This document shows positions 943-10,798 of a stretch of 64,000 bases of DNA, one piece after another. Made by a program: the position numbers and the translations under genes. The DNA is from a virus, in the IMG/VR virus record IMGVR_UViG_3300042898_004347, positions 62,001-126,000 of that record. The stretch is one strand, 5' to 3'. The notes beneath the pieces are model-generated. The model did not search any database, had not been told where the DNA came from, and saw nothing but the letters and a program-made list of their open reading frames with translations. Each line of letters begins with the position of its first letter. Positions within the stretch are counted from its first letter, which is position 1.

Positions 943-1015
943 TTATTTTTCTCCACTTGAGTATTGCCCTGACCCTTTGGGCGGTGGAGTAATGCTCAGG
1001 TCAAACCGAAAAATG

Positions 1016-1108
1016 AATCACGTGTAAGGCTCGAACTTACATCTTCAGTTTCGTTCAGGATGTACTTGTCCTGTAACACTGAAATCTTATCCTTTAGACG
1101 AACGTGAT
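1016..1108 (-). ncRNA. tRNA-like RNA with enlarged anticodon arm
   Basis: It has a 7-bp acceptor (ATCACGT/ACGTGAT), a D-arm with GG in the loop, and a T-arm with loop TTCGAGC, so the elbow looks functional. The anticodon stem TCAGT/ACTGA, however, encloses 28 nt instead of 7. Within those lies a second hairpin, CAGGA/TCCTG. A Val-type TAC sits after T33, and removing about 21 nt would restore a normal loop, but no splice signal is visible. CCA is not encoded. It may be a tRNA with a small insertion, a decayed tRNA, or an RNA that does not decode. Confidence 0.5.
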
Positions 1109-1695: not shown

Positions 1696-1875
1696 ATGAA
1701 ACTCAAATTTTGCGATTATACCTTTACCCTAATGTCGAATGGTGATATTGTCATGGATGACGCAATCACTGCAGATAAACTTGAAGTTAAATCTGGGGAT
1801 TTATTTGAAACTGTTATTACCCCGGATGGGGTCGTAGTATTTCAAAAGAAAAATGGTGGACCTGAGGGGAGTTGA
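1696..1875 (+). CDS. small hypothetical protein, 59 aa, antisense to tmRNA 3' end
   Basis: The predicted protein starts MKLKFCDYTFTLMSNGDIVM and is mostly beta, with ITADKLEVKSGDLFETV in the middle. It is one of the few plus-strand genes, preceded by a late motif. Its last 22 nt overlap the 3' end of the convergent tmRNA gene, so the final residues are imposed by the tmRNA acceptor/T-arm. Unknown function. Confidence 0.55.
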   Translation: MKLKFCDYTFTLMSNGDIVMDDAITADKLEVKSGDLFETVITPDGVVVFQKKNGGPEGS

Positions 1876-2222
1876 ACCCCTGTGTTCAGTACTTTTCCGA
1901 TAATTTTCTACAAGCTTAGTATTACTTAACAGTCCCCATGATACCGTAATACTGTATCATGATTGTTTTAGTGAGGATACGCATCTTGTACACCACTTCA
2001 AGATGGTCTCGCTTTTATGACGAGTGTAACACTTAGCGAGAATCCGTGTTATCTACTCGATCACAGTTTTTAGGCTGCGAGTGGCATTTCTTCGGCGAAA
2101 CCGAAGAAGTTGCTGAGGGCTTTATTAATGCCGTTTAACTTTTTACCAGTTTTTAAAAGGTGTCCGGAGAACCTTGCTTGCTTACTATAAGTCTATTACT
2201 GAGTCGAATCCAGTACAGGCCC
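1854..2222 (-). ncRNA. ssrA: tmRNA (one-piece)
   Basis: The 5' end GGGCCTG followed by TGGATTCGAC is the tmRNA hallmark. It pairs with the 3' end CAGGTCC, then A and an encoded CCA. A T-arm with loop TTCAACT precedes the acceptor. Between lie pseudoknot-rich segments and a tag reading frame at 2132-2070: GGC resume codon, GINKALSN...EEMPLAA, then TAA (20 residues, AA-ending like protease degrons). It rescues ribosomes stalled on truncated mRNA with SmpB, which is not encoded in this window. A boxA-like element lies 5 nt upstream. Confidence 0.92.
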
Positions 2223-2391: not shown

Positions 2392-2404
2392 ATAAAATGA
2401 ATTT

Positions 2405-2832
2405 GGGAGGGTTAATGATTACCTCCATCTAACAATTGTGTTTTCAGTTATTCAGTCATATGGTGCCGTCGCACCTTAATAGTCCGCTTGTCATTGTATT
2501 TCAGGCTTACAAGACTATACCTCTGGTTGCTTAGGTTGGCCGACCCAAGTTTTCAGCGTAGTACCTTACTTACTTACACATTGTAGAACTGAGTGATGTT
2601 CTTCACACCACCCATGCGTTAGCCCCATTAGAAAGGCTTTCTTCCGCCACAAAAATTTCTCTCATGTTACGGCAACGTCAGCATACAGTCCCGACCAGTG
2701 CCTATTCCACTATTATCGAGATTTTACAACTGTTGCAGACCGTGGTGACAATAGGTTCGTGAAACCAGTTGCCGCATGAGAGTCCAAGGTGATCAAACCT
2801 TGGAAAGTATTTAAAAGAACGAAATTGACTAT
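2405..2832 (-). ncRNA. unassigned structured RNA, about 430 nt
   Basis: No credible ORF. A strong early promoter (2839-2867) and a boxA-like repeat lead directly into it. A long-range 15-bp helix pairs 2659-2666 and 2670-2676 with 2775-2782 and 2768-2774, with one 3-nt bulge. Local hairpins include 2784-2790/2797-2803 (CCAAGGT/ACCTTGG) and 2462-2466/2471-2475 (GGTGC/GCACC). A GGAGG/CCTCC hairpin at 2406-2426 may end it. It does not show RNase P, 6S or tmRNA signatures that I recognise. Confidence 0.55.
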
Positions 2833-2879: not shown

Positions 2880-3503
2880 TTATGGCATATATGTTTTACA
2901 TTCATCTAATGATAAAATTATCTTTAAATTGGGCATAAGTTTTTTAATAACATCTAATTTTGTTTTTTGAACATTCGCCGCGTGCGGATTTTTAGGATCG
3001 AGATATATGTCATGATCCGGCAGATAAAAATCAGGAAAATAATTATGAGTTCTACCATCAATCATTACATATGAAATAGGAACTTTGGGACGAATCCAAT
3101 TGATTCCTATTTCATCCAACCGCATTGCTAGAATTTCTTCCCAGGATGAATCTAAAGTGACAATAGTTCCATCTTTCTTTGTATATTTTCTTATAGATCT
3201 AACTAAACGTCTATGTTTTGATGCTAGTGCTTTTTGACTCATTAATGCCTTACTTTCAGGGCTATGAGTTTTTCCTAAATTTGGACTTGAATAATCGACA
3301 TTATCATATTTCCCATCAGCATGAGCTTTTTTAATTCCAGCAATACGCTTTGCTTTAGCTTCAGGAGTGCACATTTGAGTGCAGTTGTTACTCATTTGAT
3401 ACGAAGATCGTTTTGGGTTTTCTTTACACCACCTACTATGATTTGCTTTATTAGCAGTTGATAGACCTTCAAAATCCTTTTTACAGTATTTACATTTAAA
3501 CAT
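2880..3503 (-). CDS. homing endonuclease, Zn finger + NUMOD3-like + VSR/EDxHD-like nuclease
   Basis: 207 aa. Residues 1-30 hold a C-x2-C...H...C finger (CKYCKKDF). A NUMOD3-like DNA-binding motif (GKTHSPESKALMSQKA) lies near residue 78. The C-terminal half (about 118-190) has the pattern W..R.....Y.......PDFYLPDHDIYLDPKN, shared with the ORF at 6978-7583. This matches VSR/PD-(D/E)XK-type homing endonucleases. It is free-standing, between tRNA-Arg and the structured RNA. It probably promotes inheritance of the RNA cluster, as SegB does in T4. Confidence 0.65.
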   Translation of the reverse strand: MFKCKYCKKDFEGLSTANKANHSRWCKENPKRSSYQMSNNCTQMCTPEAKAKRIAGIKKAHADGKYDNVDYSSPNLGKTHSPESKALMSQKALASKHRRLVRSIRKYTKKDGTIVTLDSSWEEILAMRLDEIGINWIRPKVPISYVMIDGRTHNYFPDFYLPDHDIYLDPKNPHAANVQKTKLDVIKKLMPNLKIILSLDECKTYMP

Positions 3504-6149: not shown

Positions 6150-6226
6150 TGGAGCGCCAGACAGGGATCGAACCTGCATGTGACTGTTTTGCAAACAGAA
6201 GTTTAGCCTTTCAACAACACTGGCGC
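6150..6226 (-). tRNA. tRNA-Cys(GCA)
   Basis: Acceptor GCGCCAG/CTGGCGC, U73, CCA. Anticodon stem CTGT/ACAG with loop TTGCAAA. Confidence 0.92.
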
Positions 6227-6917: not shown

Positions 6918-6991
6918 TGGTGCCTTCGACAAGAATCGAACTTGTGACTAGCGCTTATCAAGCGCTGGTTATACCGTTTAACTACAAAGGC
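6918..6991 (-). tRNA. tRNA-Ile(GAU)
   Basis: Acceptor GCCTTTG/CGAAGGC, A73, CCA. Anticodon stem AGCGC/GCGCT, loop TTGATAA. Its first 14 nt overlap the 3' end of the homing endonuclease gene. Confidence 0.93.
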
Positions 6992-7583
6992 TTTTAATAT
7001 ATTCCACATTTATATCTTTATTTAAAAGAATGATTATTTTTACAGAATTCTGTTTTGCTGCTAATTGTATTTTTTCTGCATCCAAAATGGCTTTATAATC
7101 GTTTTTAGGATCTAAATATAAATCATATTCTGTTAGATAGAAATCAGCAAAATATCTTTTATTGTTGTATTTTAATGATTTCGGTCGAATCCATTTTATA
7201 TTCAATTCATTTAATAATGAACTACATCTTAATTCATATGTACTCTGTAGTGTAACTTCATTACCATATGAATCATTTACTTTAAATTTTTTACTTCTTC
7301 CAGCCAAAGGTTGGTAACCACCTAAACCTCGATCTTTTGCTATTTTTGATAATAGTGATTTAGTTTCTTGAGTATGCGCAGTTCCTGTACCGGGACCAGT
7401 TTTTGGTCTAAAACATCTAACATCGGACAATACAGTTTTACCTTTATTCCATGCAACCCTCTCTACTTTAGGTTTAATGACTTTAGGTTTATCGTGCCAC
7501 TTTAAATGACGATTGAATGCGAAAAGCGATACGGCATTTCCACATTTAGGACAAATAGATGTTGTTGTTTTACCTTTGGGCAT
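6978..7583 (-). CDS. homing endonuclease, Zn finger + VSR/EDxHD-like nuclease
   Basis: 201 aa, start MPKGKTTTSICPKCG. An N-terminal C-x2-C...H...H finger (about residues 11-29) is followed by a linker with a NUMOD-like segment. The C-terminal nuclease region has the pattern Y.LRCSSLLNEL.I.WIRP...Y....YFADFYL.EYDLYLDPKN, homologous to the ORF at 2880-3503. The start is set by a late motif 5 nt upstream. The stop codon lies inside the tRNA-Ile gene and a broken tRNA abuts the 5' end, so it looks inserted into the tRNA array. Confidence 0.65.
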   Translation of the reverse strand: MPKGKTTTSICPKCGNAVSLFAFNRHLKWHDKPKVIKPKVERVAWNKGKTVLSDVRCFRPKTGPGTGTAHTQETKSLLSKIAKDRGLGGYQPLAGRSKKFKVNDSYGNEVTLQSTYELRCSSLLNELNIKWIRPKSLKYNNKRYFADFYLTEYDLYLDPKNDYKAILDAEKIQLAAKQNSVKIIILLNKDINVEYIKSLCS

Positions 7584-7588
7584 TAATC

Positions 7589-7596
7589 TATTTATA
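7589..7596 (-). promoter_or_regulatory. late promoter (TATAAATA)
   Basis: Perfect late motif, 5 nt upstream of the homing endonuclease ATG and directly joined to the tRNA 5' half. Confidence 0.7.
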
Positions 7597-7634
7597 GAGG
7601 TAGACGATGCTCTAACCAACTGAGCTACTAGACC
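7597..7634 (-). pseudogene. tRNA 5' half (broken tRNA gene)
   Basis: GGTCTAG TA plus a complete D-arm (GCTC AGTTGGTTA GAGC) and the 5' strand of an anticodon stem. The match ends where the late promoter of the homing endonuclease begins. The 3' half is not present nearby. Confidence 0.6.
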
Positions 7635-7639
7635 GAAAA

Positions 7640-7729
7640 TGGCGGAAATAGAAGGATTCGAACCTTCGGGGCTTTTGAGGACCCGAGACTTTAGCAAAGT
7701 CTTGCCTTAAACCACTCGGCCATATTTCC
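7640..7729 (-). tRNA. tRNA-Ser(GCU)
   Basis: Class II. Acceptor GGAAATA/TATTTCC, G73, CCA. Anticodon stem AGACT/AGTCT, loop TTGCTAA. Long variable arm. Confidence 0.94.
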
Positions 7730-10177: not shown

Positions 10178-10798
10178 TTACTCGATGCCTTTTGTGGCTT
10201 TTTTCTTCTTCTTTTGAAGAATCTTTCTCCGAGCGTTGAGTCGATTCACAACCTCATTACCAGTCATCCAAATATCTTTGTTATCAAGAATTGATTGAAT
10301 CTCATCGGGCTTCAAAAAGTCCGAATAAATTTCCTGGAGTAATCCTTCAGACCATTTGCGTTCATGCTTGATCTGGTCGATCATCTCTCCGCCTTTACCC
10401 ATTGTGCCACCCGAATAATTGTGGAACATAAACATTGAATGAGCAGAGATTTCAAAGCTATCTGACATTAAAAAGACGATAGTTGCTGCAGACATACAGG
10501 CGCCCTCAACGGAGGCCATGACTGGAGCTTTGCATTCACGGATCACCCGCATGAACTGAATTGCTGACCATAGATCGCCACCCGAAGAATTGATGTAGAT
10601 TTTCACGAGATCATTTGGAGGACAATGACGAATCTGATTAAACCACTCGGTGTATTTCGAAGCTTCTTCAATTTGTCCCACGAGATAATACTCATGGATA
10701 TGCCCGAGGGGTTTATCTGTAAAGGCACATGTGGGTTTTTTTTCCTGATTTAGCATATCGAATAGGGGATGATCTAATTTTTTAACATCAGTCTTCAT
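10178..10798 (-). CDS. ClpP-like serine protease
   Basis: 206 aa of the ClpP/crotonase fold. INSSGGDLWSA (about 70-80) forms the oxyanion region, GACMSAA holds the nucleophile Ser103, and MFMFHNYSG the catalytic His126, with spacing as in ClpP. A basic C-terminal tail (KKKKKATKG) replaces the usual ring-contact end. The family degrades protein in AAA+-gated rings; phage members may process virion or host proteins. It lies in the early operon upstream of 10069. Confidence 0.75.
   Translation of the reverse strand: MKTDVKKLDHPLFDMLNQEKKPTCAFTDKPLGHIHEYYLVGQIEEASKYTEWFNQIRHCPPNDLVKIYINSSGGDLWSAIQFMRVIRECKAPVMASVEGACMSAATIVFLMSDSFEISAHSMFMFHNYSGGTMGKGGEMIDQIKHERKWSEGLLQEIYSDFLKPDEIQSILDNKDIWMTGNEVVNRLNARRKILQKKKKKATKGIE

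Follow-up and report, generated by a model that had tools for sequence, protein, structure and literature searches.

A genuine, structurally complete one-piece tmRNA is encoded in the virus record studied here, and its 20-residue tag belongs to a family of conserved long phage tags, which is the new finding. The tag extension sits ahead of a degron of the host type and, within the searches made, was seen only in phages. The stretch of DNA that was analysed (the window, 64,000 nucleotides) corresponds to positions 62,001-126,000 of a record of 140,053 bases, which was placed among the T4-like phages by its DNA polymerase and gp23. The features discussed are collected in Table 1.

Table 1. Features of the tmRNA gene and the ClpP-type protease gene (positions of the window).
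Feature	Position	Strand	Evidence
One-piece tmRNA gene, complete, 369 nt, CCA encoded	1854..2222	-	ARAGORN; RF00023 full model
Acceptor stem 5' strand GGGCCTG, with G3 of the G-U pair	2216..2222	-	pairing; invariant in 20 relatives
Pseudoknot PK1, upstream of the resume codon	2146..2175	-	window pairs; covariation
Tag reading frame GGC..TAA, GINKALSNFFGFAEEMPLAA, 20 codons + TAA	2070..2132	-	ARAGORN; codons
Tag extension INKALSNFFGFA, net ten codons over Verrucomicrobiota tags	2094..2129	-	tmRNA alignment; homologous extensions
Hairpin within the tag frame, TTCTTCGG/CCGAAGAA, 8 pairs	2088..2108	-	pairing; local fold
Host-type degron EEMPLAA	2073..2093	-	same residues, almost same codons in Verrucomicrobiota tmRNAs
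Helix H5, containing the final tag codons and the stop codon	2056..2081	-	window pairs
Pseudoknots PK2, PK3, PK4	1918..2051	-	window pairs; covariation
T arm, 3' acceptor strand CAGGTCC and encoded ACCA	1854..1881	-	pairing
ClpP-type serine protease, possible tag partner (inferred only)	10178..10798	-	PF00574; phrog_1827

Structure of the tmRNA gene

A one-piece tmRNA with the tag GINKALSNFFGFAEEMPLAA* was called by ARAGORN, and the same bases were matched by cmscan to the full RF00023 model (1-374), continuously from 5' to 3', with a score of 102.6 bits (gathering score 47) and an E-value of 5.9e-39. A two-piece (permuted) form was ruled out by this continuous match. The preliminary description had recognized a complete one-piece phage tmRNA from the acceptor, the encoded CCA and the 20-codon tag and had proposed the covariance model as a check; both programs and the fold agree with that description. 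In the tRNA-like domain, all seven pairs of the acceptor GGGCCTG/CAGGTCC are formed, G3-U included, and the T loop of the T arm reads TTCAACT. TGGATTCGAC and the encoded CCA are present. The G3-U acceptor pair is an identity signal for alanine. The tag frame has a hydrophobic end and is closed by a stop codon.

The minimum free energy of the RNA was -101.5 kcal/mol (z -3.4), and none of 100 shuffles was equally low. PK1, H5 and PK2-PK4 can all be drawn on the RNA. To probe this structure, it was written by hand for the window and compared with a plain alignment of 20 relatives. With PK1, H5, PK2-PK4 and the end helices, the structure was 82% paired, compared with 32-46% when the partners were slid, and 21 pairs were altered on both sides, compared with 11.5 in shuffles. 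Covariation was detected in the first stems of PK1-PK4, the second stem of PK4, the T stem (two pairs altered on both sides) and the near-end helix; the first stem of PK1 was 100% paired, two of its pairs being compensatory. Low scores were obtained for PK2b, PK3b and part of H5, where the plain alignment does not keep the register, and PK1b is also poorly probed by it owing to gaps and register shifts. For PK2b, the complementary strings TCTCGCT and AGCGAGA can be seen in relatives of both groups. A sigma-70 promoter scan near the gene gave no site on the minus strand.

The RNA shares the G-U acceptor, T arm, CCA, a resume codon and a tag frame with the E. coli ssrA-type one-piece tmRNA, as well as PK1, H5 and PK2-PK4. 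It differs from that type in its 20-codon tag, Gly resume codon, in-frame hairpin and phage origin. Other phage-encoded tmRNAs are those of Bxz1-type mycobacteriophages and of Streptomyces, Gordonia and Enterococcus phages, and one of the mycobacteriophage tags, ATDTDATVTDAEIEAFFAEEAAALV, is long as well. In blastn, the T arm of the window matched many annotated phage tmRNAs; about 30 T-arm bases were in common and nothing else, and the tags of the cultured phages are unrelated to the family described below. Like the window, marine T4-like phages (Melnitz, pelagimyophages; PMC9004378) combine a tmRNA with a T4-like phage of aquatic bacteria, but theirs is permuted, two-piece and of the alphaproteobacterial type, whereas that of the window is one-piece with a Verrucomicrobiota-type degron. 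Permuted tmRNAs were also observed in two viral contigs, L078 (G022:14268-14602) and L084 (G023:52735-52790), with the tags AANDDYYGDVALAA and ANNNFAPSGYALAA. The carriers are distant T4-like relatives (polymerase 51-52%), so both forms occur within related phages.

SmpB was found neither in the window nor in the rest of the 140-kb record, in line with the earlier remark that no smpB is seen, and the SmpB of the host must therefore be used. The absence of the gene from the phage would also suit a role as an inhibitor or as a decoy titrating SmpB. A TLD-only RNA is reported from mycobacteriophage DS6A, as is the inhibition of tmRNA by a similar molecule (PMC4131195). However, the whole mRNA-like domain and the tag frame are present and constrained, which is needless for a decoy, and we consider such a role very improbable.

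The long-tag family

The tag is composed of G, INKALSNFFGFA and EEMPLAA, i.e. it contains a net insertion of ten codons ahead of an unchanged degron. The "Phe-rich centre" pointed out in the preliminary description falls in this insertion, upstream of the degron. In the tmRNA database, tags of 10 residues are the commonest (PMC11915505).

The closest RNAs, 96.5% identical and with an identical tag, were found in the viral contigs L006, L008 and L009; a 308-nt fragment at the end of another contig (L010) is fully identical. The 3'-end pattern was matched by 34 viral stretches, and homologous extensions were identified in L007, L092, L108 and L305-L329. Beyond the window group, about 25 viral contigs carry homologous tmRNAs, the readable tags of which are 21-29 residues long and all start with GI. 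The tag of L309 and L325 is GISNVIEAIFGTRTEELQLAA, that of L308 is GIIQSLKSVVASVKESFSFPGTEAFALAA, and many of the others follow GII[QN]SLKNAVASV...FALAA(A). The C-terminal degrons vary within the family and are placed after the extension. Of its first eight residues, the window tag shares just G, I, L and N with the GII group. L315 and L316, two contigs matched by the same 3'-end pattern, carry tags of the ordinary kind with 11 residues, so the long tags are not a search artefact. Many matches of a viral pattern scan were rejected as chance matches or other genes.

The gp23 identity to that of the window was 85% in the record of L325 (G421) but only 36-37% in the records G422 and G427, indicating that tmRNAs of this family are spread over distantly related T4-like phages. 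Neither two tags searched by tblastn nor one homologous tmRNA searched by blastn had a match in 50,697 deposited phage records. Among the newly found long-tag tmRNAs, only those of L309 and L325 were called by ARAGORN. The standard finder thus overlooks many phage tmRNAs, and published counts are probably too low. Even the 2021 count, 402 of 18,146 phage genomes or about 2.3% (PMC9004378), together with the many T-arm matches above, contradicts the earlier view that just a few genomes are known to have a phage tmRNA.

Two sequence deviations were observed in the family. The T loop of L305, L310, L311, L314 and L319 is GGCAGTA instead of TTCAANT, and most of the long-tag group has CAGATTCGAC instead of TGGATTCGAC. 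These changes may bear on the contacts with SmpB or the elongation factor, and on the tmRNAs missed by ARAGORN.

The host-type degron

Bacterial genomes were scanned with a pattern built on CTGGATTCGAC...AAACGGC, and the results are to be taken as a sample. Among the matches listed, tags of the form G[TN][FYTI]EEMPLAA occurred in Opitutaceae and other Verrucomicrobiota; one EEMPLAA-tag MAG among them was labelled Akkermansia (Verrucomicrobiota) and one "bacterium". Outside Verrucomicrobiota, the genome matches were mostly due to chance or to genes of another kind. In an evenly drawn set of 387 Verrucomicrobiota genomes, the short EEMPLAA tag was present in 12, and a pattern search for a long tag ending in EEMPLAA found it in none. 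The sole match of the long pattern, in G321, proved to be a short tag of the usual kind, ACGG being present upstream of it by chance.

The Opitutaceae-type tmRNAs (GTFEEMPLAA, GTYEEMPLAA, GNTEEMPLAA) have, like the window, a Gly resume codon after AAAC, and they share EEMPLAA with nearly the same codons. In contrast, their acceptor is GGGGGTG, the other parts of the RNA are unlike those of the window, and the extension occurs in none of the genomes seen. From the degron to the stop codon, 24 of 25 bases are the same as in one host copy (CGAAGAAATGCCMCTCGCAGCCTAA), which speaks for a common origin. When the whole window tmRNA was compared with the 387 genomes, the matches were confined to short segments, in most cases of the T arm or the degron. 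Either the window tmRNA has diverged far from those of Verrucomicrobiota, or only the degron segment would have been exchanged. Judged by the degron alone, the host is probably a member of Verrucomicrobiota. The preliminary description had compared the tag with ANDENYALAA of E. coli; the more fitting comparator is the Opitutaceae-type tag, the last seven residues of which are likewise EEMPLAA, and the degron therefore looks matched to the host rather than redirected.

Since the degron codons almost equal those of the host group, a host ssrA gene that was recently captured and is now decaying, or the remnant of an integration site, was considered as the source of the gene. The genes of tmRNAs are common integration sites. 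The full structure, the covariation and a tag that stays identical in relatives with a rearranged tRNA cluster are at odds with decay, and the sharing of the RNA family with phages of such low gp23 identity (G422, G427) also speaks against this origin. This origin is the least probable of the readings discussed here.

Constraint on the extension and the hairpin in the tag frame

In 15 distinct tags of the GII group, pairs of which are not independent, the pN/pS of extension codons 2-13 was 0.12. Variable were 10 of the 12 third positions, compared with 4 of the 24 first and second positions (Fisher p 0.0002). The evidence for constraint comes mostly from the GII group; the group of the window contributes one substitution, namely the single difference between the tags of the window and L006, which is synonymous. 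The tags of L309 and L325 differ at three sites, all synonymous. The pattern is plain and points to purifying selection on the extension as a peptide in the family. As a helix model, the extension would be amphipathic, which is suggestive only: its hydrophobic moment exceeded that of shuffles in three lineages (p 0.044, 0.013 and 0.025) with the segment ends chosen by hand.

The same codons take part in a hairpin, which is present in every member of the set. In the window, TTC TTC, which encodes Phe-Phe, is base-paired with GAA GAA, which encodes the two Glu residues of the degron, and this pairing may partly explain the "Phe-rich centre". A similar hairpin is found in L309 and L325, the mutual differences of which preserve its pairs, and its stability there is beyond that of peptide-preserving codon shuffles (p 0.006 and 0.000). 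These properties would be expected if the tmRNA were an ordinary phage tmRNA with an extension that is neutral or serves the RNA only, the hairpin compacting the longer frame and the peptide having no role of its own. However, the predominance of third-position changes in codons 2-13 argues for selection on the peptide, and the hairpin of the window is not clearly above what its peptide allows (p 0.22; 0.05 in L006). An extension of the RNA only is therefore regarded as unlikely.

Probable fate of the tagged proteins

The account that we consider likely is that of a working phage tmRNA which uses the SmpB of the host, and the tag of which joins a host-type degron to a phage extension under selection. 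The tmRNA would be charged with alanine through its G3-U acceptor, pair with the host SmpB, enter stalled ribosomes during infection and add Ala and the 20-residue tag to the stalled product. The EEMPLAA end would be recognized by ClpXP of the host, or else by ClpX in a complex to which the phage contributes its ClpP. Ahead of it, the N-terminal extension would be a phage module, kept by selection at the peptide level and folded as a hairpin in the RNA. Most likely, it would act as a spacer or a second contact, and it could improve tagged proteins as substrates or send them to an adaptor or protease chosen by the phage. More tentatively, and on balance doubtfully, the tag could consist of two parts, an amphipathic GI.. 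module of the phage and a degron that follows the host, the module being read by a partner and giving the phage control over nascent chains. An adaptor, the phage ClpP complex or the membrane, of phage or host origin, are candidate readers of such a module. If the likely account is true, the phage may have partial control over ribosome rescue and the disposal of proteins in the infected cell. This bears on why phages carry a tmRNA, as the role of the extension becomes simply testable by comparing tags with and without it.

The possible protease partner is a ClpP-type protein, which matched PF00574 with 39.6 bits (E-value 6.6e-10, cutoff 20.2 bits) and phrog_1827, an ATP-dependent protease, with 2.8e-61. 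Its catalytic Ser, His and Asp align with those of ClpP. The protein was rejected as the prohead protease, since the record has its own Peptidase_S77 (PF03420), which leaves ClpP free for another role. The gene is kept in the relatives G003, G010 and G006 and occurs in four carriers of long-tag tmRNAs (G419, G421, G422 and G426). It was not found in G420 (140 kb), G423, G424 and G427, several of the records being fragments, and G021 and G022 have neither ClpP nor a long-tag tmRNA. The lack of ClpP in G420 and the shorter carriers indicates that a fixed pair of tag and ClpP is not required. ClpP-like matches are also widespread in phages (1,621 records). A link between ClpP and the tag can be put forward as a hypothesis based on small numbers.

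The preliminary description had suggested that the tag may redirect stalled peptides to a different protease. A phage ClpP with a conserved triad, occurring with the long tags and free of prohead processing, provides a candidate for such a protease. In contrast, the host-type end of the tag does not fit redirection, and neither do the carrier without ClpP (G420) and the commonness of ClpP-like proteins in phages. Redirection from the host proteases to the phage ClpP is accordingly judged improbable, more so than an extension serving the RNA only.

The tRNA cluster and other observations

The tmRNA gene is placed within a tRNA cluster, all on the minus strand, and 23 tRNAs were counted in the 140-kb record. 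An additional tRNA at 6155-6224(-) of the window was detected by Rfam with 32.4 bits and is absent from the ARAGORN output. Two putative endonuclease-like genes, 2880-3503 and 6978-7697(-), are inserted in the cluster. The former has matches to NUMOD3 and Phage_endo_I, both below the threshold, and the latter was judged endonuclease-like from its sequence only.

A tRNA-like cloverleaf with an elongated anticodon arm and without CCA was observed at 1013-1107(-); it had no Rfam match up to an E-value of 1. The corresponding sequences in L006, L008 and L009 are 88% identical, and several of the differences in the acceptor and T stems are compensatory. It may be a new tRNA-like RNA or else a tRNA whose anticodon loop carries an insertion.

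A conserved, structured non-coding stretch (fold z -3.0) lies between tRNA-Met and the endonuclease gene at 2396-2825(-). Its identity was 94-96% in L006, L008 and L009 and 75% over 250 bases in L309 and L325. The stretch matched the manA RNA (RF01745) weakly, with 19 bits against a cut-off of 55, and may be a divergent manA RNA.
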